Made by a program: the position numbers and the translations under genes. Below are positions 8,636-22,942 of a stretch of 64,000 bases of DNA, in pieces (position 1 is the stretch's first letter; each line of letters opens with the position of its first letter). The stretch is from Rhodopirellula sp. P2. Lineage in GTDB: Bacteria; Planctomycetota; Planctomycetia; Pirellulales; Pirellulaceae. The stretch lies in NCBI RefSeq assembly GCF_028768465.1, contig NZ_CP118225.1:1054001-1118000 (forward strand). The letters run 5' to 3'. The notes beneath the pieces are model-generated. The model had not been told where the DNA came from. It ran no database searches and saw nothing but the letters and a program-made list of their open reading frames with translations.

Positions 8636-10383
8636 TGAGGAAGCTCCAGTGCGATGGCTTGGTGTGCATTTCGAACAAGGATCAGGTTGTCGACCACGGT
8701 GGGAATGTTCCAGGTCTTGTGTTCCAGAGCAGGGATGCGAATCAGCTCGCGGTAGTCCTCGGGATCAGCAGCGACCAGCACCACTTCCCCGTCCTCGGCT
8801 TGAACGACCAAAATATCTTCAACCAAGATCGCTTGTCCTTGCCCAGAACGTTCGCGGCGGGATTGTTCCCACAGACGTTTGCCGGATTCGATTTCAACCG
8901 CTTGCAAGGCACCGTTGCTCAAGGCATACGCGATGCCGTTGTGGACCAAAGCGTGATTGAATTTGGTTTTCAGGATTCGCGATGAATGCCAGATTTCATT
9001 CACCACGAAGTCGGACGTTTCGGAAGAGGCCGTGTCAGCCGCGGATGGGGTGTCGGCACGCCTGACTTCGATCAACGAACTGCCGCCGCCATAGCCTTTG
9101 CCGATCAAGAACTGGTTCTTCCCGGCAGGAATCGCGGCGGCACAGTTCGCACCGGAGTTCGATTTGCCTTCCCAAGGGAACGACCACAGAACTTCGCCCG
9201 TGGCAATGTCGTGCCCCGTGATGTCGGCTTCGTTGACCGCGACGATCTGGCGTTTTTCGCCAAGGGTCATGACCATGGGCGACGCATAGCTGATTTGTTG
9301 TTCGCCGGCTCGCCAGCGTGTTTCCCCCGTGGCAGCATCCAGTGCAATCAGCGATCGGCCGGCATCCGATTCTGAATCGGGGCCGCCCAGTGGAATCAGG
9401 CAGAGGTCGTCGACGATCAGTGGTGATCCTGACCGGCCCCAGGAGATGGCTGCTTCCGAGTCCTCTTGGCTCCAACCCGCGATTTCCAAGAGGTCACGTT
9501 GCCAGAGGATTTCGCCGTCGGAGAGGTTCAAACACCAAACGGTTCCCGTGGCACCTTGGGCATAGACCTTTCCAGGGGACAGGTCAGTCGCGGGCATGAT
9601 GGATGGGGTGGATCGCGGGCCGCCTCCACCGAGTGCTTGAAAATGATTCGCTTCGTGCTCGACCAACCAAAGCAATTGGCCATCGGAAAGTCGATAGGCA
9701 GTGACGCATTCCAGCTCACCCCGTTGCTCGAGCGTCACCGCGATGCCATCAGCGACCGCAAACGAGGACCAGCCTTCCCCGATCCCAATGTCCCATCGGC
9801 GGGTCACTTGATTGGCGGAAGTGGGAATTGCGAACGGACGTTCCTCCAGAATCCCCGTTCGGTTGTTGCCCAAAAATTCTCGCCACGATCCTTGCGAATC
9901 AGACGGATTGGATTCCACCAACGCGTCCTCGGGATTGGCATCGGCCAAGGGGGTCGTTTTGAGGGCGGGTGTGTCCGAGTTTTTGAATCGCCAAGAGAAT
10001 CGGGGGACCATTTCACCCGAAAAGCTTTCGAATCGAAGGAGAGTGACCGCCGAGAGGATCAAGGCCAGGCAACCAGCCGGCACCCACCACGCTTTCCCCG
10101 CCGCCAAACTGGCACGCTGCAATTGGTACAAAACGACCAACAAAGTGATCCCGCCGGCTACCAAACTCTGCAGCAACGCTTTTTGGTAATCGGTTTCGGG
10201 GGCTCGTGACTGAATCAGTCCGATCACAATCGCACCTGCGATCAGGGCCACCAAGGCTTTCGAACTGTGTCGGACAACCCTGCCCGCGACGGTGGGCACG
10301 GCATTCGCGGTCTCGTACCCTGGAGAGGCCGATTCGTCAGTCGTTGGATCGGGGGGAGGAACGGTCATGGTTGACCAACCCAT
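8632..10383 (-). CDS. PQQ-like beta-propeller membrane protein
   Basis: The 583-residue protein has three predicted membrane helices in the first 115 residues (ALVALIAGAIVIGLI, LVAGGITLLVVLYQL, WWVPAGCLALILSAVTLL). An exported part follows, made of PQQ-like propeller blades: repeated aromatic-W motifs such as QLLWLVEHE, EILWQRDLL, ALDAATGETRWRAG, DIATGEVLWSFPW and SGKRLWEQS. The propeller belongs to the outer-membrane-lipoprotein/PQQ-like family rather than to true quinoprotein dehydrogenases; no PQQ or calcium site is evident. Its last codons overlap the bshB1-like start, suggesting coupled translation. The role is unknown; a scaffold or sensing part is plausible. Confidence 0.8.
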   Translation of the reverse strand: MGWSTMTVPPPDPTTDESASPGYETANAVPTVAGRVVRHSSKALVALIAGAIVIGLIQSRAPETDYQKALLQSLVAGGITLLVVLYQLQRASLAAGKAWWVPAGCLALILSAVTLLRFESFSGEMVPRFSWRFKNSDTPALKTTPLADANPEDALVESNPSDSQGSWREFLGNNRTGILEERPFAIPTSANQVTRRWDIGIGEGWSSFAVADGIAVTLEQRGELECVTAYRLSDGQLLWLVEHEANHFQALGGGGPRSTPSIMPATDLSPGKVYAQGATGTVWCLNLSDGEILWQRDLLEIAGWSQEDSEAAISWGRSGSPLIVDDLCLIPLGGPDSESDAGRSLIALDAATGETRWRAGEQQISYASPMVMTLGEKRQIVAVNEADITGHDIATGEVLWSFPWEGKSNSGANCAAAIPAGKNQFLIGKGYGGGSSLIEVRRADTPSAADTASSETSDFVVNEIWHSSRILKTKFNHALVHNGIAYALSNGALQAVEIESGKRLWEQSRRERSGQGQAILVEDILVVQAEDGEVVLVAADPEDYRELIRIPALEHKTWNIPTVVDNLILVRNAHQAIALELPQ

Positions 10384-10394
10384 GCGAGAGAGAA

Positions 10395-11306
10395 ATGTTG
10401 AAACGTAGAAAAAAACAGTTGTCAGAGCACGGTAACACGTCGCCCAGGTTGGCGGAATTAGTTCCCGATCCCGATCTCGCTGATCCCGTTCAGCTGGCGT
10501 TCATCTCTGATTTACACCTGTTCAGCTCGCGTTGCCACATCGAACGCCACCAGGCGACGATTCGGCGGGCCATCGAGGCCACCGACGTTTGTGTTTGGGG
10601 GGGCGATCTGTTTGATTTCTGCTGGAGTCGGCTCGGCGATGGAGATGTTTCGCGAACTGCCGCAATTGAATGGCTGGAAGCCTGGCGAGCCGAGTTTCCG
10701 GACAAGGTTTTCATCTATTTGAACGGCAATCACGATGCGCAAGCCTCGTTTCGCCAATCACTTCGGGAGTGGGCGTTGCCGTATCGGCAAGAGAGCGATC
10801 CACCACCGGTCTCCGATCCCGGCGGGGTGAACTCGGATTCAGCGGAGCCCGCTCCACATGTTCGCTTGCGATTGCAGCCCGGTGCCGTCCATGTGGATTG
10901 GGACGCGATTCGATTGGCGGATTTGTTGATGGTTCATGGGGACGTGATTGAGGGAGGGGGCCATTCCGCTGGTTTGGCCCACTATCGAAACCGGTGGGCA
11001 CACGAATCCGACAAGTCACCTGCGAATTTGAAGAATGGTTTTTACGATGCGGCGGTGACCGCGCGATTGCACTTGGCGGCAGCGGGCGTCGCTCATCGAC
11101 GCCGTTCGACGTGCTTGCGATTGCTGCACTGGGCGCGACAGCAGCCGACTTGGTTGCACCATGACATGCAGCGAGTTGTCTTTGGGCACACCCATCGATG
11201 TCTCCGCGGTGTCCATGTCGCTGGGATCGATTTCTACAACGGCGGTGCCGCGGTCAAACATGTGAAATTTGAACCCGTGGTTTTGTCGGTTTCAGGCGGT
11301 GTTTGA
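10395..11306 (+). CDS. Metallophosphoesterase, LpxH-like
   Basis: The start is the ATG at 10395, preceded by GCGAGAGAG; an upstream extension is open but overlaps the divergent PQQ gene. The 303-residue protein shows all calcineurin-type metal motifs in order: SDLH (Asp39, His41), GGDLFD (Asp71), LNGNHDA (Asn112, His113), MVHGD, and FGHTHR near the C-terminus. The arrangement resembles UDP-2,3-diacylglucosamine pyrophosphatases, but the long insert with a serine/proline-rich loop (about 130-160) is not typical. It probably hydrolyses a phosphodiester or nucleotide diphosphate. It precedes the ATP-grasp/alpha-E run on the same strand by about 250 nt, so a shared role is possible but unproven. 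Confidence 0.78.
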   Translation: MLKRRKKQLSEHGNTSPRLAELVPDPDLADPVQLAFISDLHLFSSRCHIERHQATIRRAIEATDVCVWGGDLFDFCWSRLGDGDVSRTAAIEWLEAWRAEFPDKVFIYLNGNHDAQASFRQSLREWALPYRQESDPPPVSDPGGVNSDSAEPAPHVRLRLQPGAVHVDWDAIRLADLLMVHGDVIEGGGHSAGLAHYRNRWAHESDKSPANLKNGFYDAAVTARLHLAAAGVAHRRRSTCLRLLHWARQQPTWLHHDMQRVVFGHTHRCLRGVHVAGIDFYNGGAAVKHVKFEPVVLSVSGGV

Positions 11307-11555
11307 GTGTCTGAAAGACGGGCTTATGGCATTCACCGCGCTGCTAATGCACCGCGGAGGGAAACTTGCCTTCTTTGGTGAAGGACGCTGGCAATTCATG
11401 TCATCGCCACCACCCATTGCGATACACTGCAGCGTAATCAGTCAGAGGCGGACTGACCGTGCACCCCAACCATTTCGACGGTGGTTGAGAGGGATGTGTG
11501 TCGTCGTGTTTACTCTGTTAACCGGTCTCGTGAACGCGGACTGGCAAATCGCTCC

Positions 11556-13169
11556 ATGCAAAATCAGCCGCAACAAACTCAGTCCCAGATGGCTCAGGCT
11601 CAGGCCGGTCAATCTCAAAACGGGCCGATGCAATCGCAATCGCAATCGCAGTCGCAGTCGCAGTCGCAGTCGCAGTCGCAGTCGCAGTCGCAGTCGGGAC
11701 CGGTGCCGCGTTTAGACGGTTACCAGACCGAGTCGTTCTTTGACGAAGTCGTTGATGAAAACGCTTATGCTCGGCCTGATTCGGTCGCATTGGTGGAATT
11801 GATCAACCGCTTGCCACCAGGCGAACTGAACCGTCGTCAGCTGGCGATTGAGCGTTCGCTGTATCAGATGGGCATCACGTTCACGGTTTACAGCGATTCC
11901 GCTGGCACCGAAAAGATCATGCCGTTCGACATTGTTCCCCGCATCATCGCACCGGATGTTTGGATTCACATCGACAGTGGATTGAAACAGCGTATTCGCG
12001 CGTTGAATCGTTTTTTGTCGGACATCTACAACGAACGAAAAATCATCGAAGACGGGATCATTCCCGCATCCATCGTCGATTCCTGCCCGGCCTACTTGCC
12101 TGAGTGCAGAGGCTTGCGTCCGCCGCACGATGTTTGGTGCCATATCACCGGGACCGATTTGGTCCGTGACGACGACGGCAACGTGTTTGTCCTGGAAGAC
12201 AACCTGCGGTGCCCTTCCGGTGTTTCGTATGTGTTGCAAAACCGTTCGGTGATGAAACGAAACTTCCCCCAAGCTTTTGCGGCCTCGATGGTCCGTCCGG
12301 TCAGTGATTATCCGGCTCGGCTGTACCAGATGCTTCGACGAATGGCGCCGAGCGCCGTTGCGGATCCAAATGTCGTTGTGTTGACACCCGGGGTCTACAA
12401 CAGCGCTTACTACGAACATTCCTATCTGGCTCATCAGATGGGCGTTGAATTGGTGGAAGGACGCGATTTGTTGGTCGAGGATGAACGCGTTTACATGCGA
12501 ACAACCGATGGTCTGCAAGCCGTGGACGTGATCTATCGACGCGTCGACGACACTTTCTTGGACCCCGAAGTGTTCAATCCCAAGTCGGTGTTGGGCGTCC
12601 CGGGTTTGATGTCGGCTTATCGGGCCGGCAATGTGGCCTTGGCCAACGCGCCGGGAACCGGCGTCGCGGATGACAAGGTGGTTTACGCTTATGTGCCGGA
12701 GATGATTCGGTACTACTTGGGCGAGGAACCGATCTTGTCGAACGTGCCAACCTATCTGTGCGATCGTGACGAGGATCGAGCCTACGTGCTGGATCACTTG
12801 GACGAGTTGGTGGTCAAAGCCGCTGGTGAATCGGGCGGCTACGGCATCTTGATTGGACCGCACGCCACGCCAGAAGAGCGTCAAGAATTCGCCGAGAAGA
12901 TCCTTGAGAATCCACGCAACTATATCGCTCAACCAACGCTGAGCTTGTCTCGGGTTCCGACCATGGTGGACGATCATCTGGAAGGGCGTCACGTTGACTT
13001 GCGGCCTTACATTCTTTGTGACGGTCCCGATGACGTGTGGGTTTTGCCTGGCGGCTTAACACGTGTGGCGCTCAAGAAGGGCTGTCTCGTTGTGAACTCA
13101 TCCCAAGGTGGCGGCAGCAAGGACACGTGGGTGGTGGCCCAAGCGGGTGAAACGGTCGCTCGGCCGTAA
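11556..13169 (+). CDS. Circularly permuted ATP-grasp protein (DUF404/DUF407 type)
   Basis: From the ATG at 11556 the protein has 537 residues; an in-frame ATG at 11481 would add 25. After a low-complexity Gln/Ser head comes the CP-ATP-grasp domain: IMPFDIVPRIIAPDVW, LKQRIRALNRFLSDIYNERKI-like text, the conserved block VFVLEDNLRCPSGVSYVLQN, VLTPGVYNSAYYEH, LVEGRDLLVEDERVYMRT, and the Gly-rich AAGESGGYGILIGPHA near the C-terminal third. These enzymes are predicted to make amide bonds between carboxylates and amines using ATP. The head contains eleven perfect hexamer units coding Gln-Ser (11631-11696). It is the first gene of a five-gene plus-strand run with alpha-E and transglutaminase-like partners. 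The chemistry is inferred from fold; the product is unknown. Confidence 0.88.
   Translation: MQNQPQQTQSQMAQAQAGQSQNGPMQSQSQSQSQSQSQSQSQSQSQSGPVPRLDGYQTESFFDEVVDENAYARPDSVALVELINRLPPGELNRRQLAIERSLYQMGITFTVYSDSAGTEKIMPFDIVPRIIAPDVWIHIDSGLKQRIRALNRFLSDIYNERKIIEDGIIPASIVDSCPAYLPECRGLRPPHDVWCHITGTDLVRDDDGNVFVLEDNLRCPSGVSYVLQNRSVMKRNFPQAFAASMVRPVSDYPARLYQMLRRMAPSAVADPNVVVLTPGVYNSAYYEHSYLAHQMGVELVEGRDLLVEDERVYMRTTDGLQAVDVIYRRVDDTFLDPEVFNPKSVLGVPGLMSAYRAGNVALANAPGTGVADDKVVYAYVPEMIRYYLGEEPILSNVPTYLCDRDEDRAYVLDHLDELVVKAAGESGGYGILIGPHATPEERQEFAEKILENPRNYIAQPTLSLSRVPTMVDDHLEGRHVDLRPYILCDGPDDVWVLPGGLTRVALKKGCLVVNSSQGGGSKDTWVVAQAGETVARP
11631..11696 (+). repeat. Hexanucleotide microsatellite (CARTCG)11 in the ATP-grasp gene
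   Basis: Three CAATCG units are followed by eight CAGTCG units without interruption, 66 nt in total, encoding eleven Gln-Ser dipeptides. The unit is a multiple of three, so gain or loss of units by slippage would change linker length without breaking the frame. Both ATG candidates for the gene (11481, 11556) lie upstream of it. Confidence 0.97.
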
Positions 13170-13288
13170 CGAACGGGCGGCCGGGTTCCATCCGCACGAT
13201 GGCTCCGCCGCCTTCCCCCGTATTGTTTGTCGCCGCTTCTGTCGCAATCTCACCGTCGCTTTTACTTTTCTTCGCTGACACCACTGAT

Positions 13289-14239
13289 ATGCTCTCACGC
13301 GTTGCTGAATCCGTTTACTGGATGAGTCGCCAAGTTGAACGTGCAGAAAACATCGCACGTTTCTTGGAGGTCACTCTGAATCTGATCTTGGATCAACCTG
13401 AGAACTTGGTTGATCCCTGGAGTCCGTTGGTGCAAGTCACCGCGGACGAAGAGTGGTTCGAGGAAAAGTACGGCAAGCCAAACAGTCGCAACGTGGTTCA
13501 GTTTTTGGCGTTTGACGACGAGTATCCCAACAGCATGGTTTCGTGCTTGCGTGCCGCTCGCGAAAATGCGAGGGGGGTTCGGGAAACGTTGTCGTCCGAA
13601 GCGTTTGAACAACTCAACCAGTTTTACCACTTCGTCGGCGAAGCCTCGTCCGCCGCGGCGATGGACCCGACCAGTCAGTTCTTTGACGATGTGCGGAAGC
13701 AGACGTTGCTATGGAGCGGCGTGTTTGCCAGCACCATGGCCCAGGACACTGGTTGGCATTTTGCGAACTTGGGTCGGATGCTGGAACGGGCTGACAAGAC
13801 GTCCCGGATCTTGGACGTGAAGTATTTCAACCTGTTGCCCAACCTGGCCGACGTGGGCACGGCGGTGGACGATTTGCAGTGGTCAGCCTTGTTGCTGGCG
13901 ATCAGTGGCATCGAAGCGTATCGCCGCGATCATCATCGAATTGAGATCGAAAAGGTCGTCGATTTCTTCTTGTTCAATCGCAGTTTTCCAAGGTCCATCC
14001 ACCACTGCATCGCCTCAGCCAATTGGTCACTCGGGGAAATCGAAGCAGCCTCGTCGAGCGAGATGACCCGCACCGCTGGTCCCATTCTCGACGCGCTGCA
14101 ACATCGATTGGCTCACACGCAAGTCGAAGAAGCCCTGGCGGGCGGTATGCATCAATTCGTTGATTCCGTGCAATCCGAGATCAACCGAATCGGTGAAGCT
14201 CTTGGTCAAGACTATTTTCAAATCTCGGTAAATTCATGA
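13289..14239 (+). CDS. Alpha-E domain protein (DUF403)
   Basis: The start is the ATG at 13289 (MLSRVAESVYWMSRQVERAE), which is the canonical first residue of this family; the open frame upstream is longer but not family-like. The 316-residue protein is nearly all helical, ending QSEINRIGEALGQDYFQI. It carries the signature RVAES-YWMSR-VERAENIARFLEV at the N-terminus and HFANLGRMLERADKTSRILDVKY-like text in the middle. Alpha-E proteins always accompany CP-ATP-grasp proteins and are thought to help the amide-ligase reaction; their exact job is not established. It lies 119 nt after the ATP-grasp gene and overlaps the next gene by 4 nt (ATGA at 14236-14239). Confidence 0.9.
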   Translation: MLSRVAESVYWMSRQVERAENIARFLEVTLNLILDQPENLVDPWSPLVQVTADEEWFEEKYGKPNSRNVVQFLAFDDEYPNSMVSCLRAARENARGVRETLSSEAFEQLNQFYHFVGEASSAAAMDPTSQFFDDVRKQTLLWSGVFASTMAQDTGWHFANLGRMLERADKTSRILDVKYFNLLPNLADVGTAVDDLQWSALLLAISGIEAYRRDHHRIEIEKVVDFFLFNRSFPRSIHHCIASANWSLGEIEAASSSEMTRTAGPILDALQHRLAHTQVEEALAGGMHQFVDSVQSEINRIGEALGQDYFQISVNS

Positions 14240-17200
14240 CGATCCGCGTCGCGCTCCATCACAAGACTTCGTACCACTACGAACGACCGATCATGGTCGG
14301 ACCTCAACAGGTTCGATTGCGTCCGGCCTATCACGGTCGGACCCCGATCGTGTCGTACAATTTGGCGATCTCGCCCGAGGACCACTTTTGCAATTGGCAA
14401 CAGGATCCGTTTGCGAACCCCGTTGCGCGGTTGGTATTCGAAAAGCCGACGGATCATTTGACGGTTTGTGTCGACCTGGTCGCCGACATGACGGTCATCA
14501 ATCCCTTCGAGTTCTTCGTGGATGATTCGGCTCAAGGATGGCCGTTCGAATACGATGCGCAAGCCAAGCGGCAACTGGCCAGCTATCTCGCGCCTGTCGA
14601 GATGACTTCCAAGTTTGCGAAGTGGTTGGAGACGCTTCCAAAGAAGTCCGAGCGGATCATTGACTTCCTGGTGGATGTCAATCGAGCTGCCCAAGAAAAG
14701 ATCGATTACAAAATTCGAATGGAACCGGGCGTTCAATCGCCCGAGGAAACCTTGACGTTGTGCAGTGGATCCTGCCGTGATTCGGCATGGTTGTTGGTCA
14801 ATGCGTTTCGGCACATGGGCATGGCATCGCGGTTTGTGTCGGGTTATCTGATTCAGCTGACCGCCGATCAAGAATCGTTGGATGGTCCCAATGGACCCAC
14901 CGAAGATTTCTGTGATTTGCACGCATGGACCGAGGTTTACTTGCCGGGCGCTGGATGGGTGGGATTGGATCCGACCAGTGGTTTGATGGCCGGCGAAGGT
15001 CACATTCCGTTGGCATGCACCCCCTCGTTCACGGATGCCGCACCGATTATCGGCGGGCATGAACCGTGTGAGGTGGAGTTCGAACACGAGATGACCGTCA
15101 CGCGGGTCCATGAGGACCCACGCGTGACAAAACCGTATGCAGATTCCACGTGGCAAGAGATCCTCCAGGCTGGGCGTGCGATCGATGAGCAACTGGAAGC
15201 CGCCGACGTGCGACTGACAATGGGCGGCGAACCCACGTTTGTCTCGATCGACAACATGGATGATCCGCAGTGGAACACCGATGCGGTCGGCGAAGAGAAA
15301 CGCGTGCTCAGCAACGTCTTGCTGACTCGGCTTCGTGAACGCTGGGCACCGGGCAGTTTGCTGCACTACGGGCAAGGCAAATGGTATCCCGGTGAGTCAT
15401 TGCCACGTTGGGCGTTGACCTGTTTGTGGCGTCGCGACGGGCAATCGATCTGGCACGACGATCAATGGATCGGTGACGAAGGGAAGGATTACGGGCACAC
15501 TCATCAGGACGCGGAACGCTTTGTCAAATCGCTCGCTCGAGAGCTGAATGTCAATGCCCGGATGGCATTCCCGGTCCACGAGGATGTCTTTCACTACTTG
15601 TGGAAAGAAAATCGGTTGCCGATCGATGTGGATCCTTCCGATCCGAAACTGGAGGACCCCAACGAACGTGCCATGATGATGCGGACGTTCAACGCGGGGC
15701 TGGGGTCACCGGTGGGGTTTGTGTTGCCTGTTCGACGAGCTTGGTGGCAAGCTCGTCCGGGTTGGATCAGTGGCCGATGGCCCGTTCGCAGTGAGCAGGT
15801 GTATTTGATCCCTGGTGATTCGCCCATTGGTTTGCGGTTGCCACTGGATCGATTGCCAGTCGCTTCGGCATCGGAAGCCCCGTTCTACACCACACCCATG
15901 GATCCCACTGCTCCGCATGGGCCTTTGCCAACTTCGAACATGCCGCGGGGCAACGAGCAGGATCCACGCGGCCAACACCGTGAAGATTCTCGAGAAGAAG
16001 GTCGGACACGGATTCATCCTCAGGTCTTGGATGAAGAAGACGATGACAATCTGCCGACCAGCGAAGACGTGGTGCAAACGGCGCTCTGTGTGGAATGCAG
16101 GTATGGGCGTTTGTACGTTTTCATGCCTCCGACACAGCGGATTGAAGACTACTTGGATTTGATCAGGGCGATCGAGCAAACCTGTGTGTCGACGCAATTG
16201 CCCGTCATCATCGAAGGCTATTTGCCGCCATCGGATGACCGAATTGAATTGTTCAAGGTCACGCCGGATCCCGGTGTGATTGAAGTCAACACACAACCCA
16301 CGGCATCGTGGGACGCTTTGGTTGAATTGACCGAATCGCTGTATCACGAAGCCCGTAAGTCGCGGTTGGGAACGGAGAAGTTTGACCTGGATGGTTATCA
16401 CACCGGGACCGGTGGCGGGAACCACATTGTGTTGGGCGGACGCTCCACCAACGAAAGCCCGTTCTTGCGACGACCGGATTTGTTGGCCAGTTTCATTCGT
16501 TTCTGGAACAACCACCCCTCGCTGTCCTACATGTTCAGCAGTCGGTTCATTGGTCCGACCAGCCAAGCACCTCGCATGGACGAGGCGCGACAAGACGCGG
16601 CCTATGAAATGGAGATCGCACTGAGTCAGTTGCCGCCAACGGAAACCGAGGTTCCACCGTGGTTGGTTGATCGATTGTTCCGTGACTTGATGGTCGATTT
16701 GACGGGCAACACGCACCGCGCGGAAATCTGCGTCGACAAACTGTATTCGCCCGATAGTTCGACCGGGCGTTTGGGCTTGCTTGAGCTGCGTGGTTTTGAA
16801 ATGCCACCCCACGAACAAATGAGTCTGGCTCAGTTGTTGTTGATCCGCTCGTGTGTCGCTGCGTTTTGGCAGCAACCCTACGACCGTCCGATTCAACACT
16901 GGGGCACACGTCTTCACGATCAATTTTTGTTGCCGCACTTTGCTTGGCAGGACATCACGCAATTGATTGGGGAACTCAATGCCAAGGGATCGCCGATGTC
17001 AGCGGATTGGTTCGCGGTGCATCACGAATTCCGATTCCCGTTGATTGGTGAGATTGTCCTGGACGGAATGCGAGTGGAACTCCGCAGTGCCATCGAACCG
17101 TGGTACGTGATGGGCGAAGAGCCGGGCTCGAGTGGAACGACTCGATTTGTCGATTCGTCACTGGAACGATTGCAGGTGTTGGTGGAAGGTTTGGAACCGG

Positions 17201-17583
17201 ATCGCCACGCGTTGATTGTGGCGGGACGGGAAGTTCCGCTGCATGCCACCGGAGTCGCTGGGCAATACGTCGCTGGCATCCGCTATCGAGCGTGGCAGCC
17301 GCCTCGCTGTTTGCACCCCACGATTGGTGTTCACACGCCGTTGCGATTTGATCTGGTGAATCGTTCGGCATGTCGTTCCATCGGGGGCTGCACCTATCAC
17401 ACGGTGCACCCGGGCGGACTCAGTCATGAACGGTTCCCTGTCAATTTGAAGGAAGCGGAGTCACGACGTGCCTCGCGGTTCCGTCCCTTCACGCTGACAG
17501 GTGGCGAAATCGTGATGCCTGGGTTGCCACCCCGAACGGGGTTCGAGCCGTTCCCGGTCACGATGGATTTGCGACGGAGTTAG
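14236..17583 (+). CDS. Transglutaminase-like / DUF2126 protein
   Basis: The 1115-residue protein starts with a bacterial transglutaminase N-domain (VALHHKTSYHYERPIMVGPQ). The transglutaminase core has a complete Cys-His-Asp triad: Cys180 in SGSCRDSAW, His229 in DLHAWTEVY and Asp245 in GLDPTSG. From about 310 to the end is the DUF2126 region, with LTMGGEPTFVSIDN, GVIEVNTQPTASWD (Glu683, Asn685), TGTGGGNHIVLGG (Asn729, His730) and THRAEICVDKLY. These look like the metal and nucleotide motifs of glutamine-synthetase/GCS-fold ligases, which is my inference. The gene is translationally coupled to the alpha-E gene by a 4-nt overlap. The length matches the family (about 1100). One molecule may therefore combine amide cleavage or exchange with amide formation. 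Confidence 0.88.
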   Translation: MTIRVALHHKTSYHYERPIMVGPQQVRLRPAYHGRTPIVSYNLAISPEDHFCNWQQDPFANPVARLVFEKPTDHLTVCVDLVADMTVINPFEFFVDDSAQGWPFEYDAQAKRQLASYLAPVEMTSKFAKWLETLPKKSERIIDFLVDVNRAAQEKIDYKIRMEPGVQSPEETLTLCSGSCRDSAWLLVNAFRHMGMASRFVSGYLIQLTADQESLDGPNGPTEDFCDLHAWTEVYLPGAGWVGLDPTSGLMAGEGHIPLACTPSFTDAAPIIGGHEPCEVEFEHEMTVTRVHEDPRVTKPYADSTWQEILQAGRAIDEQLEAADVRLTMGGEPTFVSIDNMDDPQWNTDAVGEEKRVLSNVLLTRLRERWAPGSLLHYGQGKWYPGESLPRWALTCLWRRDGQSIWHDDQWIGDEGKDYGHTHQDAERFVKSLARELNVNARMAFPVHEDVFHYLWKENRLPIDVDPSDPKLEDPNERAMMMRTFNAGLGSPVGFVLPVRRAWWQARPGWISGRWPVRSEQVYLIPGDSPIGLRLPLDRLPVASASEAPFYTTPMDPTAPHGPLPTSNMPRGNEQDPRGQHREDSREEGRTRIHPQVLDEEDDDNLPTSEDVVQTALCVECRYGRLYVFMPPTQRIEDYLDLIRAIEQTCVSTQLPVIIEGYLPPSDDRIELFKVTPDPGVIEVNTQPTASWDALVELTESLYHEARKSRLGTEKFDLDGYHTGTGGGNHIVLGGRSTNESPFLRRPDLLASFIRFWNNHPSLSYMFSSRFIGPTSQAPRMDEARQDAAYEMEIALSQLPPTETEVPPWLVDRLFRDLMVDLTGNTHRAEICVDKLYSPDSSTGRLGLLELRGFEMPPHEQMSLAQLLLIRSCVAAFWQQPYDRPIQHWGTRLHDQFLLPHFAWQDITQLIGELNAKGSPMSADWFAVHHEFRFPLIGEIVLDGMRVELRSAIEPWYVMGEEPGSSGTTRFVDSSLERLQVLVEGLEPDRHALIVAGREVPLHATGVAGQYVAGIRYRAWQPPRCLHPTIGVHTPLRFDLVNRSACRSIGGCTYHTVHPGGLSHERFPVNLKEAESRRASRFRPFTLTGGEIVMPGLPPRTGFEPFPVTMDLRRS

Positions 17584-17751
17584 AATTCCCTCGATGACCC
17601 ATCCCAGGGAGGGAGAAGTGGGCGGAAAAGGTGAATTGCATTTGCCGATCTGGTCATTCGTTGAATCCTTGGGCTCAGCTACAATTGCGCTTCAGTGCTC
17701 AACCGCGACGAAGAAGTTTGACCCCGTGGGAACATCCGCGGGTCGATACTG

Positions 17752-20403
17752 TTGCCAACTCCGATCGAATCACAGGTGAACGTGCCGACTCCCACCGCGA
17801 CAGCTCCGTCCAATGATTTGCCATCGGGATCCCCGCTTGGGCTGTCGTTGGCAAACTACACCTCAATGGCGGAACGCTTTGACGAGTGCCGCCTGCCCGA
17901 TGGTGCTTTGCGGCCGTGTTGGAAGAGCATCGCCGATGAAGTCATGGCACTTGGCTCGTCAGGGCTGAACGATCGTGAATCGCAAATTGAACAGCTGATT
18001 CGCGAAAACGGTTCGACGTTTCAAATCGACACCGGTGAAGGCACCCAGACGCGTCCTTGGCAATTGGGGACGGTTCCGATGGCCATCGCCGATCAAGATT
18101 GGAATCGGTTGGTGGTCGGATTGACGCAACGGACCCGAGTGCTGGAAGCCATTTTGGCCGACTTGCTCGGACCCCAACGTCTGGTTCGCGAGCGAGTTTT
18201 GCCACCGGAGTTGTTGTGGGACAACCCTCGGTTCCTGCGTGTCTATCACAACTTGCCCGTTTCGGCGGGGCATCGATTGCATTTGGTTGGTTTCGATGTG
18301 GCGCGTGCCAATGATGGTGGATGGTGGGTCACCGGCGATCGCACCCGGGCACCCAGTGGATTGGGGTATCTGCTTGAGAACCGAATTGTTCATGGACGTG
18401 TGTTCCCGCATTTGAGTCGCGCCGCGAATGTGCGCCGCTTGGCATCCTTCTTTGGATCGATGCGACGGCATTTTCGGTCGCTGGCACCACGTCAGGACGG
18501 CAACCCACGGGTCGCCTTGTTGACGCCAGGCCATGGCAGCTATCGCGATTTTGAAGATGCCTACCTCGCGCGTTACTTGGGATACACGTTGGTCCAAGGC
18601 CGCGACTTGGCAGTTCGTGGCGAACGCCTGCATTTGAAGACCTTGGGCGGTTTGCTTCCCATCGAAGTTCTATGGCGTCATGTCTCGGATCGGAAATGCG
18701 ACCCGCTGGAATTGGATCCGCATTCCACCGAAGGGGTGACGGGATTGTTGCGATGCAAACGCGGTGGGCAATTGGCCGTCGTCAACTCGATCGGAAGCGT
18801 GATCGCGGAGATGCCTGCTCTGATTCCGTTCTTGCCAGCGGCGGCGAAGTTGTTGTTGGGGGAAACACTTCAGCTTCCCAGCGTCGCAACGTATTGGTGT
18901 GGGGCAGAAAAGGAACGTCGCTATGTGCTGGAACATCTTGATGAACTGGTCATCCGGGATGCGTTTGCGGTCAGCGACACTCGACCGGTGATGCCGATCC
19001 GTTGCAGTGCGGAAGAGAATGAAGCCTTGGTTCGTCGCATCAAGACGCAACCCAATCGATTCGTCGGGCAACATCGGTTTTCACACAGCACCACTCCAGT
19101 GTGGCATCGCGATCGGTTCGAGCCTTGGCATGTGTCGCTACGAACGTTTGTTCTCCAGACCAAGACCAACATCGAAGTCTTGCCCGGTGCGTTGGCACGC
19201 GTCAGTCCGAAAGAAGATTTGCTGAGCAACTCACCGACGCAGGGTCAGTTGACACAAGATTGCTGGATTGTCAGTGACAAACCGGTGGACCATGAAACGA
19301 CGTTGTTGTCCCACGACGAAAGCACCATCGTGCTGCGACGCAGCGGGGCGGAATTGCCCAGCCGTGTGGCCGAGCATCTGTTTTGGTTGGGACGTTACGT
19401 CGAACGTTGTGAATCGATTGCCCGTTTGCTTCGAACCACCTTGGCACGTTTGGTTGGCGAAGATGAACTGAGCGATCTGCCTGAAATGTCGAGGTTGGTC
19501 GCGGCGTTGGCCGCGGTTGGTCAGCTCGAACCGGACTACGTGATCGAAGGTCTCGACGGCGCCATGCCGCAACTGGACAGCGTGTTGCCTTCCAGTGTGT
19601 TTGACACAGCCAATCCGAGAGCCCTGCAGATTTCGGTGGCCAGTGCTCTGCACAACGCGACCGCAGTCCGCGACCGGATTTCACTGGACGCCTATCGCAT
19701 CTTCCAAAGCATGCACTCGGACATCTCCGGTGCGAAACGATCCGTGGCACCCAACGTGTCGCGGGCAATGGAGCGACTCAATCGTTTGATCACTCATTTG
19801 ATGGCCTTCAGTGGTTTGACCGCGGAAAGCCTGACCCGAACACATGGTTGGCGGTTCGTTTTGCTCGGACGACGCTTGGAACGAGCGGACCAAACAGCGG
19901 AGTTGTTGCTGGCAACGATGACGCGTCCAATCGCTGATGAAGTCGGGCTCTGTGAGAGCATTCTTGATGCAACGGATAGTTTGATGACCTATCGTTCGCG
20001 GTACTTGTCATTGGTCCGTCCCGCGCCAGCAATCGATTTGATGGTCACGGACGAAACCAACCCGCGATCACTGCGTTTTCAGCTCAATGATATTCAGCAA
20101 CTGCTGAGTGATCTGCCGACGGAACCAGGGCGTGTGGCGCTGGGGGCAGATGAGCGTTTGGCCCGTGAACTTCAGCACCCGTTGTTGATCGCGGACGTTG
20201 CGACGCTGACCGAGGTCAACTCAGCCGGGACGCGGGTGGAACTGGAGCGATTGCTGGAATTGGTTCAAACGAAAATCCCACAACTGGCCAACGCGATCGC
20301 AGGGCGTTACCTCATTCACACCGCTCCCGAGCAGACTCTGACCGGAGATCGCGAACAAACGCTGGATGATTCGTTGATGCCCTCCGAAACGTCACCAAGG
20401 TGA
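17752..20403 (+). CDS. Fused circularly permuted ATP-grasp + alpha-E protein
   Basis: The start is uncertain: TTG at 17752, or GTG at 17776 or 17782 in the same frame; no ATG fits. The 883-residue protein has a CP-ATP-grasp domain in about residues 30-510 (APSGLGYLLENRIVHGRVFP, LLTPGHGSYRDFEDAYLARY, LVQGRDLAVRGERLHLKTLG). An alpha-E domain follows at about 535-850, beginning LPSRVAEHLFWLGRYVERCE, the equivalent of the stand-alone alpha-E protein's first residues. The Gly-rich AAGESGGYG stretch of the stand-alone ATP-grasp is replaced by VIRDAFAVSDTRPVMPIRCS, so this copy may be catalytically different or inactive. It follows the DUF2126 gene by 168 nt, and its stop overlaps a possible GTG start of the next gene. 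Confidence 0.88.
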   Translation: MPTPIESQVNVPTPTATAPSNDLPSGSPLGLSLANYTSMAERFDECRLPDGALRPCWKSIADEVMALGSSGLNDRESQIEQLIRENGSTFQIDTGEGTQTRPWQLGTVPMAIADQDWNRLVVGLTQRTRVLEAILADLLGPQRLVRERVLPPELLWDNPRFLRVYHNLPVSAGHRLHLVGFDVARANDGGWWVTGDRTRAPSGLGYLLENRIVHGRVFPHLSRAANVRRLASFFGSMRRHFRSLAPRQDGNPRVALLTPGHGSYRDFEDAYLARYLGYTLVQGRDLAVRGERLHLKTLGGLLPIEVLWRHVSDRKCDPLELDPHSTEGVTGLLRCKRGGQLAVVNSIGSVIAEMPALIPFLPAAAKLLLGETLQLPSVATYWCGAEKERRYVLEHLDELVIRDAFAVSDTRPVMPIRCSAEENEALVRRIKTQPNRFVGQHRFSHSTTPVWHRDRFEPWHVSLRTFVLQTKTNIEVLPGALARVSPKEDLLSNSPTQGQLTQDCWIVSDKPVDHETTLLSHDESTIVLRRSGAELPSRVAEHLFWLGRYVERCESIARLLRTTLARLVGEDELSDLPEMSRLVAALAAVGQLEPDYVIEGLDGAMPQLDSVLPSSVFDTANPRALQISVASALHNATAVRDRISLDAYRIFQSMHSDISGAKRSVAPNVSRAMERLNRLITHLMAFSGLTAESLTRTHGWRFVLLGRRLERADQTAELLLATMTRPIADEVGLCESILDATDSLMTYRSRYLSLVRPAPAIDLMVTDETNPRSLRFQLNDIQQLLSDLPTEPGRVALGADERLARELQHPLLIADVATLTEVNSAGTRVELERLLELVQTKIPQLANAIAGRYLIHTAPEQTLTGDREQTLDDSLMPSETSPR

Positions 20404-20408
20404 ATCCA

Positions 20409-21329
20409 ATGCCACGGTCGGTCACTTACGACATCGTCCATGAAACGAAGTACAGATACAGCGAACCGGTTGCGGTTTGTCTGAATCAACTTCGTATGCG
20501 CCCGCAGACGCGTCCGCCGTCGGTGGTGTGCAACCAGTGTTCGGTCACGATCGAACCGATGCCTGCCAAAATCGACACGCACCCGGACTACTTTGGCAAC
20601 GTTGTTGATTCGTTTGCCATTGAATCACCTCATGAGTCGTTGGTGGTCAAGGTCAACAGCCAAGTGCAGGTGACTGCGATCAACCCTTTCGAATCCCAAA
20701 ACATTCCGACCGTGGGCCAACTAACCAACGCAATCCGAACGGGCCAAGCACAACCGGATCTCCTCGCCAAGGAATATGTCTTCGCGTCGCCTCGGATTCC
20801 CCTGGCGGAACACTTTGCCGCGTACGCGAAAGCGGTCGTGAATGAGGACTCGTCCGTGTTGGATGCGGTGCTGAGTTTGACCAAGCACATTCATCAGGAT
20901 TTTCGATACGATTCCACCGCCACGGACGTTGCCACCACAACCGAAGCGGCGTTTGAGTTGAAGGCGGGAGTTTGCCAAGACTTCTCGCATGTCCAGATTG
21001 CCTGTCTGCGAAGTCTGGGTTTGCCCGCGCGGTACGTCAGCGGGTACTTGCGGACGCTGCCGCCTCCAGGGAAACCGCGATTGATCGGCAACGATGAGTC
21101 GCATGCTTGGATCAGTGTTTACGCCGGGGAAACGTTGGGTTGGATTGATTTTGATCCCACCAATTCGTGCCAGATCGGCGTCGACCACATTCCCGTCTGT
21201 GTGGGCCGCGACTACGACGATATCAGTCCCATGCGAGGCATCGTGCTCGGCGGCGGTGAAACCACTCTCTCCGTCAAAGTGGATGTGGCGCCGGTCGAAC
21301 TGCCGGCCGTGATCATCCCGCCTGCCTGA
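20409..21329 (+). CDS. Transglutaminase-like family protein
   Basis: The start is taken as ATG 20409; a GTG at 20400 overlapping the previous stop is possible. The 306-residue protein has a bacterial transglutaminase N-domain (TYDIVHETKYRYSEPVAVCL) and a transglutaminase core with Cys189 in KAGVCQDFSH, His232 in DESHAWISVY and the Asp in IDFDPTNSC, so the triad is complete. These thiol enzymes may cut, form or exchange amide bonds in peptides. It closes the five-gene ATP-grasp/alpha-E run and is directly adjacent to the fused ligase gene, suggesting coupled translation. No signal peptide is seen, so it is probably cytoplasmic. Confidence 0.9.
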   Translation: MPRSVTYDIVHETKYRYSEPVAVCLNQLRMRPQTRPPSVVCNQCSVTIEPMPAKIDTHPDYFGNVVDSFAIESPHESLVVKVNSQVQVTAINPFESQNIPTVGQLTNAIRTGQAQPDLLAKEYVFASPRIPLAEHFAAYAKAVVNEDSSVLDAVLSLTKHIHQDFRYDSTATDVATTTEAAFELKAGVCQDFSHVQIACLRSLGLPARYVSGYLRTLPPPGKPRLIGNDESHAWISVYAGETLGWIDFDPTNSCQIGVDHIPVCVGRDYDDISPMRGIVLGGGETTLSVKVDVAPVELPAVIIPPA

Positions 21330-21610
21330 GGCTGGTATTGGTTCGTTGCCGTATCGCGTCGCGTTCTCCGGTGCAGAAGGATGGTTAAACTACCTCCGTC
21401 CCCTTTTCGCGTCGTCCCCTTTTCGCGTCCCGCTGGATGGCGAAACCTCCCTTCGCCCCAGATGGGGCGATCGTCGGTAGCTCGGGGCGGAAGCCCCGAG
21501 ACCGATGACGGAACGCAGCAGGTCGCCCCGGACGGGGCCGTCGTGGGAACGAGTTGAGGCCCGAAGGGCCGGCAGAACTCCTGCCGGGGCCGTGAGGCCC
21601 CGGTCCACAC

Positions 21611-21820
21611 GATCACCCCGAGCCCAGCGGGGCGACGGAGCACAATCGTCTCTGTCACCCCTTCGGGGTTTTGTTTTTTTGTGGGCATTCTCTTCCGGGG
21701 CCTGAGGACCCCGGCAATGGCTCTGTCGACCCTTCGGGCCTTGTTGAGGCGAGCGATGGTGCCTGGTACCGGCTCCGCCGATCCGGTAGCGAGAATGCGA
21801 TCGAAGCTCTCCGGGGCAGA
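21611..21820 (+). repeat. 210-bp direct repeat, copy 1
   Basis: From GATCACCCCGAGCCCAGCGG onward this stretch matches 22491-22700 at a constant offset of 880 nt, with a few substitutions and no indel. It includes a terminator-like hairpin (21657-21680) and a CCGGGG...CCCCGG hairpin (21695-21714). With copy 2 it brackets the small membrane-protein gene at 21862-22251. Confidence 0.93.
21657..21680 (+). terminator. Terminator-like hairpin in repeat copy 1
   Basis: ACCCC pairs with GGGGT around a TTC loop and is followed by TTTGTTTTTTT. The same structure is duplicated at 22537-22560 in repeat copy 2. It is 328 nt past the last gene of the ATP-grasp operon and could end that transcript. Confidence 0.55.
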
Positions 21821-21861
21821 AGGATGGTTAAACTACCTCCGTCCCCTTTTCGAGCGCCGTG

Positions 21862-22251
21862 TCAGAACCGAGTCATCACGGCAAGCAACGCCACAACAAG
21901 GGCAACAGTTGGGAGGACAGACCATAGGCACCACCACGTCTGATCGAGGCGAGAGATACCAAGCCGGCATTTCCAGTAGACCCAGCCGGATACGAGCAGA
22001 ATCGGGAACGATAAGATCCAGGCGTACACCGGAGCCACGATCACTTCGTAAAGTTCCGGATTCTTGGTGTCGCCCGTGAGCAGGGCGAATGCACCAAGCG
22101 AGCCGAGCAGGCCAAGTGGTATTTGCAACAGCGAAATCGCACGTAGGACCCACACCAGAATGCGTGGATTGTCGAGTGGGTCACCATCGAACCCGGGCGA
22201 CGCTGGTTGGTCGAGCTCCGTAGTTGGTGGCAGGTAAGGGGACTTGTTCAA
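21862..22251 (-). CDS. Small multi-pass membrane protein, function unknown
   Basis: The frame is open to 22269 with a TTG. A TTG at 22251 would give a start reading NKSPYLPPTTE, similar to the NPYxPPT openings common in planctomycete membrane proteins; no ATG is available, so the start is uncertain. The protein of about 129 residues has three or four membrane helices (ILVWVLRAISLLQIPLGLLG, VIVAPVYAWILSFPILLVSG, LWSVLPTVALVVALLAVMT). I do not recognise a family. It lies alone between the two copies of the 210-bp direct repeat, on the opposite strand to its neighbours. Confidence 0.6.
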   Translation of the reverse strand: MNKSPYLPPTTELDQPASPGFDGDPLDNPRILVWVLRAISLLQIPLGLLGSLGAFALLTGDTKNPELYEVIVAPVYAWILSFPILLVSGWVYWKCRLGISRLDQTWWCLWSVLPTVALVVALLAVMTRF

Positions 22252-22490
22252 GCTTTGCCCAACGTTCAAGCAGTCACTTCAGTCGCATCGATTGTGCGTT
22301 GAATTTTGTCGCCGCACTGGGACGCGAGCAACCAAGCGACCGGGACGCCCCCCGGTCGCGAGATCGAGTCTACCAGATACGAACCTTGGTCGTCCGAGAC
22401 GGTTCCGCATCCTGGGAGCGCTGGCGGAACCAGGCGGGCTGGCTTGGGGCTCATTCCCTTTGCACTTTCGACCTGAGTTTCCACACCCAC

Positions 22491-22700
22491 GATCACCCCG
22501 AGCCCAGCGGGGCGACGGAGCACAATCGTCTCTGTCACCCCTTCGGGGTTTTGTTTTTTTGTGGGCATTCTCTTCCGGGGCCTGACGGCCCCGGCAATGG
22601 ATCTGTCGGCCCTTCGGGCCTTGTTGAGGCGAGCGATGGTGCCTGGTACCGGCTCCGCCGATCCAGTAGCCAGAATGCTGCCGAAGTTCTCCGGTGCAGA
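22491..22700 (+). repeat. 210-bp direct repeat, copy 2
   Basis: It is the second copy of the element at 21611-21820. Here the hairpin after the T-tract is perfect (CCGGGGCC-TGAC-GGCCCCGG at 22575-22594), whereas copy 1 has a mismatch, which hints that the folded form matters or that copy 1 has decayed. Confidence 0.93.
22537..22560 (+). terminator. Terminator-like hairpin in repeat copy 2
   Basis: It has the same ACCCC/GGGGT stem and T-tract as at 21657-21680. No plus-strand gene ends just upstream, so here it is more likely part of the repeat than a dedicated terminator. Confidence 0.4.
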
Positions 22701-22942
22701 AATGGGAAAGTTTGTTGGGTGGCACCAAACGGACGCTATGGTGTTGCAAGCGAATCCGCTGGGAGAAAACCAGCTGCATTTGTTTGTAAGACGCCAACTC
22801 ACTGGGATCGGCTGGCTTCCCGGTGGCCGGGCGGATTCGGTGGTGGTTGGGATTGGAACGAGCCACACGTTTCGTCATTGCGTTGCGTCATCGCTGGTAG
22901 ACTGTCGATTGGTCTTGATGTCTGTCTCCCTTGGAAAGAGCG

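Follow-up and report, generated by a model that had tools for sequence, protein, structure and literature searches.

The stretch of DNA analyzed here, called the window, is 64,000 nucleotides of the genome of Rhodopirellula sp. P2, a planctomycete whose 7.29-Mb genome is a single contig. Its subject is a run of five open reading frames (ORFs), here called A to E. The ORF list and a Pfam domain scan placed all five on the forward strand with the domains that the original prediction, a note made from the sequence alone, had assigned to them. Gene A (11556..13169, 537 aa) encodes a stand-alone circularly permuted ATP-grasp protein (CP-ATP-grasp), predicted to be catalytic (CP_ATPgrasp_2, PF14403, 568 bits; homologue 3n6x, E-value 8.8e-163). 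Gene B (13199..14239, 346 aa) encodes a stand-alone alpha-E protein (PF04168, 318 bits). Gene C (14236..17583, 1115 aa) encodes a transglutaminase fused to DUF2126, a putative amidoligase of the glutamine synthetase (GS) fold (Bact_transglu_N 83, Transglut_core 57, and DUF2126 1267 bits). Gene D (17752..20403, 883 aa counted from a TTG codon) encodes a CP-ATP-grasp fused to an alpha-E domain (CP_ATPgrasp_2 434 and Alpha-E 246 bits) and is a predicted pseudo-ligase, while gene E (20400..21329, 309 aa from a GTG codon) encodes a stand-alone transglutaminase (Bact_transglu_N 82 and Transglut_core 73 bits). In the whole genome, CP-ATP-grasp and alpha-E are each matched twice, in every case within the run, and DUF2126 is matched once, in C. 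None of the five proteins matched an NCBIfam model.

Genes A and B are separated by 29 bases, and B and C overlap by the four nucleotides ATGA at 14236-14239, exactly as predicted. The other overlap, which had been proposed as possible, is conditional: D and E share GTGA at 20400-20403 if E starts at GTG 20400, while the use of an alternative in-frame ATG at 20409 would abolish it. The start of D is also uncertain, lying at TTG 17752 or at an in-frame ATG at 17866, near which the part conserved between phyla begins; the gap between C and D is accordingly 168 or 282 bases. For A, the start at ATG 11556 gains support from a one-nucleotide indel that lies upstream of this codon in two of five close relatives.

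The domain assignments were compared with conserved residues. The alpha-E motif Glu-Arg (E196-R197 in B) is found in 35 of 35 B proteins, and in the C-terminal half of D the Glu is kept in 39/39 and the Arg in 38/39 (excluding two D proteins of 700 aa or less), so that both B and D belong to PF04168 by profile and motif. The Cys-His-Asp triad of transglutaminase-like proteins (PF01841) is present in 42/42 C and 37/37 E sequences (C192-H235-D252 in E), at positions which I take to be the catalytic residues of the family. The predicted model of the DUF2126 part of C adopts the GS fold, placing this part among the GS-fold proteins. Five residues (E332, E683, H730, E850, and R852) are invariant in 22/22 C proteins and are candidate counterparts of the metal- and nucleotide-binding residues of GS. 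The transglutaminase part of the model is poor, with blocks of per-residue confidence (pLDDT) near 30-40, and the GS-fold assignment is limited to the DUF2126 part. As a single sequence, C had no match in the PDB at E-values up to 0.1, whereas a profile of C matched 3isr (9.3e-5) and 6g49 (0.0013) with its transglutaminase part, besides weak hits.

Are A and D two versions of one ligase, as the phrase "both split and fused versions" in the original prediction would have it? Residues were compared across 47 A and 49 D proteins: an alignment built on 41 chosen loci supplied 34 A and 41 D, and a sample of the phylum added another 13 A and 8 D. In A, residues D201, E214, N216, K374, K421, G427, G428, and G430 are invariant (47/47), and D481 is found in 46 of 47, the remaining sequence ending early. 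Residues E214-D215-N216 of A (12195..12203, forward strand) form a presumed magnesium-binding E-x-N motif; the corresponding residues of D are G195-D196-R197 (18334..18342, forward strand). Not one of the 49 D proteins has Glu at position 214 (G 21, A 15, S 6, R 3, N 2, V 1, K 1), Asn at position 216 (R 38, H 7, L 2, Q 1, Y 1), or Lys at position 374 (P in 43). D481 is absent from all 49 and the glycine loop from nearly all, while K421 is kept in 8/49 and D201 in 41/49. Thus, A is a member of the CP-ATP-grasp ligases by profile and by its conserved presumed metal/ATP residues, while D belongs to them (PF14403/PF04174) by profile and fold and lacks the E-x-N and K374 of the A family that would mark a competent catalyst. 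Glutathionylspermidine synthetase of Escherichia coli (Gss, also GspSA) has D318, E330, and N332 (E330-Y-N332), which I assume bind magnesium; the spacing from Asp to Glu is 12 residues, versus 13 in A.

The same division emerged from a tree built on 84 CP-ATP-grasp domains, 41 of them from A and 43 from D. A single branch with 100/100 support, present in 100% of 200 bootstrap trees, separates A from D. The tree is midpoint-rooted, several D sequences are on long branches, one sequence labelled Akkermansia comes from a metagenome-assembled genome, and near copies or fragments (L060, L062, L076, L078, L089, and L090) were left out. Judged from residues and tree, A and D are two families rather than split and fused forms of one ligase, and that part of the original prediction was not supported. 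Since the presumed metal/ATP residues are missing from every D sequence checked, the run likely comprises one active CP-ATP-grasp next to a ligase domain of the GS fold, two transglutaminases, and a pseudo-ligase. Most likely, D works with A as a helper rather than as a second enzyme.

The replacements in D are themselves conserved. Among 240 database homologues of D, none has E214 or N216, Arg216 is found in 239, and R483 and D523 are found in all 240. These are the best 120 for each of two queries (a D profile and the Nocardioides D); near relatives dominate, and the set overlaps the 49 aligned D proteins, P0005 being the D of the window itself. In the D-profile search, 7448 of 7999 scored candidates matched, and A-type proteins may be included. 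Furthermore, D is under strong purifying selection: by simple Nei-Gojobori counts against five relatives, the ratio of nonsynonymous to synonymous substitution rates (dN/dS) is 0.029-0.050 for D and 0.034-0.054 for A, although dS of D exceeds 1 in four of the five comparisons (the E gene of L055 yielded no dS). These facts, and the K421 kept in a minority of D proteins, would suit an alternative in which D has remained a ligase, or uses ATP for some other reaction, with a rebuilt active site that has Arg for Asn and Pro for Lys and performs new chemistry. I regard this as unlikely, given the complete loss of the E-x-N pair and K374 and the near-complete loss of the glycine loop; D is also more diverged between phyla than A. 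Identities between the window and Shewanella proteins are 54% for A and C, 30% for B, 38% for E, and 29 and 27% for the two halves of D. The low dN/dS also led to rejection of the idea that D is a decaying gene, though D is split into two frames in Rhodopirellula sallentina (L064, 5571-8499; same contig as L069), and in L103 both C and D are in two frames each.

How closely does D accompany A? Among 40 related genomes, A is found in 32, D in 29, and C in 27; every genome with D has A, and every genome with C has both A and D. In 119 genomes of the phylum (window genome included), 15 had matches above the cut-off, of which nine have D, all with A, and six have A without D. In nine genomes of other phyla chosen for having C, A was found in nine and D in eight. 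Combined, with the window genome counted once, A is present in 45 of 45 genomes with D, and ten genomes have A without D. In these surveys, A and D were assigned by score and frame length, and matches below the cut-off were not counted; in G001, G010, and G012 the match to D fell into two pieces, and the A of G104 has an in-frame stop codon. A role of D as a partner of A would explain why no D turned up without A in the genomes searched.

Is the joint run a peculiarity of this organism? Gene neighbourhoods, whose comparison had been proposed along with the original prediction, were examined at DUF2126 loci from two sources: related genomes, of which 27 out of 40 encode the domain (counting the window genome), and a species-level genome collection, which contributed 38 loci. 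All five genes occur together in 30 of 50 C-bearing loci, in four arrangements, so the idea of a five-gene unit special to this strain was rejected. The order A-B-C-D-E is found in 22 loci, a Desulfobulbaceae among them, and in one more with D in two frames; C-D-E-A-B in five (Shewanella, Psychromonas, Pseudocolwellia, Colwellia, and one planctomycete); divergent B-A and C-D-E in one Oxalobacteraceae; and A-B-D-E-C in one Ilumatobacter, an actinobacterium. Thus, the five-gene loci span planctomycetes, proteobacteria, a Desulfobulbaceae, and an actinobacterium. The count omits 15 loci: L067-L072, which share contigs with others; L086, L088, L093, L100, and L103, near copies of gammaproteobacterial C-D-E-A-B loci; L066, a paralogue cluster; and L081, L082, and L098, which have C alone and whose inclusion would give 30/53. 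Nine of the 50 loci lie within 200 bases of a contig end. Among named loci, the closest C is that of Rhodopirellula europaea (L067; 94% identity). Flanking genes hardly recur, the commonest families being found in two of 67 ORFs (67 of 97 listed flanking ORFs were scanned). As a side observation, one relative has an additional cluster (L066, 6487-19707, G008:C149) in which two giants joining a transglutaminase to DUF2126, a shorter protein with DUF2126, and a transglutaminase are encoded near an SBP_bac_5 peptide-binding transport protein; no A, B, or D was found in the examined stretch.

Because the five genes recur together in 30/50 loci, the run is more than chance, and because gene order changes while membership stays, a shared function is argued for. 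It could be objected that A-B and C-D-E are two independent small pathways that are merely neighbours. A-B and C or D-E are indeed apart in several genomes, A-B is also found with another transglutaminase or with the proteasome-like gene Anbu, and Nocardioides has C-D-E in one place and an A-type match on another contig. However, no D without A was found in the genomes searched, a search for both A and C in 27 relatives and nine other genomes found no C without A, and all five genes are joined in four distinct arrangements, which makes the separate pathways improbable.

The families are not new to prediction. Systems of CP-ATP-grasp, alpha-E, and transglutaminase proteins were predicted to make or modify peptides (Iyer et al. 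2009, cited in PMC5666114, PMC6376114, and PMC3597751); they comprise the same families as the run, and a peptide role was thus proposed already. As cited there, they come with no statement that the fused protein lacks an active site or pairs with A, though the 2009 paper may state so. Likewise, no product or assigned chemistry for the set, and no description of the fused protein as a pseudo-enzyme, was found among the literature matches listed, while the 2009 paper and subscription papers may differ; DUF2126 was absent from the matches listed. Passages in PMC12239564, PMC8407117, PMC10945688, and PMC10318531 contributed nothing relevant to function. The claim that the product is undescribed therefore stands within these matches. 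The families are widespread, yet no product was found for them.

A close described system is the Anbu operon (ATP-grasp, alpha-E, transglutaminase, and Anbu), which shares A, B, and a transglutaminase with the run; the run differs in having no Anbu gene and is not an Anbu operon. According to reports on that operon, its ATP-grasp protein releases phosphate from ATP, with no substrate identified, and no specific interaction was detected among the operon proteins; other reports place BCAM1233-1236 in the NtrC regulon and describe PP_2685 and PP_2688 as up on nitrate. The one PF00227 match reported in the genome is an Anbu gene about 2.06 Mb from the run, whose protein matches solved Anbu structures (5loy, E-value 1.4e-37; 5nyj, 3.3e-32). 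It adjoins a separate transglutaminase gene (L039, 6967-8726; G000:C1, about 3.137 Mb). Since an Anbu-like gene lies beside A or A-B in the relatives G028, G031, and G038, the possible partners of A-B include Anbu as well as C-D-E.

Taken together, the domains, the conservation, the residues missing from D, the co-occurrence, the synteny, and the selection are direct observations. They support families of amide-bond chemistry in one co-directional unit. I put a probability of roughly 0.55 on the reading that the run is one functional unit for making and remodelling a molecule with amide links, either peptide-like or peptide-amine, with A as the working ligase and D as its pseudo-ligase partner. 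A would activate a carboxylate as an acyl phosphate and then join it to an amine, as in its structural relatives, and the GS-fold domain of C would be a second ATP-dependent ligase. With their Cys-His-Asp triads, the papain-like transglutaminase domains of C and E would cleave amides or exchange them, and B and the C-terminal half of D would be alpha-E partner domains. Because the presumed metal/ATP residues are missing, the ATP-grasp half of D, which keeps the fold and a constrained pocket, is most likely a partner that holds a substrate or regulates A (and C/E). By analogy, the whole could be a peptide–amine ligase/transamidase in which the ligase-plus-amidase logic of GspSA is distributed over five proteins, possibly for nitrogen limitation. 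I infer the activities, the partnership of D with A, the amine and carboxylate substrates, and the nitrogen role. Over the structural match, identity to Gss and to the peptide-spermidine ligases YgiC/YjfC is about 10%; the amidase domain of GspSA is of the CHAP type, versus a transglutaminase-type domain in the run. The DUF2126 part of C is 8-15% identical over the match to the GS/GmaS/YbdK/Dop superfamily, from which C differs in its much larger size and its fusion to a transglutaminase. Alternatively, the run would be a protein-tagging system, A and C attaching a peptide or an amine to proteins and the transglutaminases removing or cross-linking it; this seems quite improbable to me.

Several points weigh against the reading of one unit with A as ligase and D as helper. 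The metal and ATP roles of the A residues are presumed by analogy; a profile comparison of A with YgiC puts E-x-N on E-x-N with a probability of just 0.3%. The missing motif suggests lost catalysis in D and does not prove it. D has no accompanying C match in two of the 29 D-bearing relatives, and a Myxococcota genome (G047) has C and A and no D match, D being dispensable there; related genomes are not independent. The nitrogen link stems from proteobacteria and, in Pseudomonas putida, from genes near an Anbu gene, and no substrate was found in the literature for any enzyme of the set. Co-transcription of the five genes is presumed, and the gap between C and D could hold a promoter. Scans for sigma-70-like sites (0 observed, 3.7 expected) and sigma-54-like sites (102 observed, 121 expected) were no better than chance, and terminator-like sites numbered 11 against 11.8 expected.

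On balance, the system is a real and conserved one of the kind predicted earlier, to which the present analysis adds a correction, the putative pseudo-ligase nature of D as judged by sequence, and a curious feature of the lineage, the tail of A. The former has a practical consequence: if D, as is probable, does not serve as a second ligase, the plan of a reconstitution changes to A and B as the enzyme and D as the partner.

The N-terminal tail of A (11556..11735, forward strand) begins with MQNQPQQTQSQ and has 22 Gln and 14 Ser in its 60 residues. A DNA pattern for four repeats of the Q-S/T type gave eight overlapping matches in the genome, all at the tail, while the backward control pattern gave 0 forward and 4 reverse matches. 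By my reading of the N-termini, Q-S-Q or Q-T-Q occurs near the start of 22 A proteins including that of the window: 18 from five-gene loci, two from A-B-C-D loci ending at a contig end (L059 and L076), one from an A-B-C-D locus with no E within the examined stretch (L060), and one from a D-E-A-B fragment (L118). The tail is missing in the gammaproteobacterial A proteins, in L123 (the second A of G001), in L077 and L080, and also in several other relatives (L043, L046, L110, L111, L115, and L117); a number of A sequences, in which no core motif was recognised, were set aside in this comparison. An array of 11 hexamers in the window (11630-11696) resembles a recent slippage expansion. That the tail is a mere DNA microsatellite was rejected, as relatives mix CAA/CAG and TCN/AGY codons. 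The tail is a conceivable transglutaminase substrate, which is just an idea. In the most speculative version, a long shot, the ligase would be covalently modified by its own system: D would bind A or the substrate of A, and the paired transglutaminases would take glutamines of the tail as donors, either to attach an amine or to cross-link A into an assembly. If so, the Gln-repeat tail would equip an amide ligase with its own transglutaminase handle. The tail offers a concrete and cheap test of the transglutaminase targets.

Around the run, Rfam and tRNA scans of the window gave no match. A metallophosphoesterase gene (10206-11306) precedes A in five close relatives and was not seen before A in more distant ones. 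A short block upstream of A, at about 11420-11455, is conserved among six sequences. Downstream of E, two similar stretches about 880 bases apart (within 21212-22940) form an apparent intergenic repeat, which yields similar short ORFs, such as those at 21681 and 22561.

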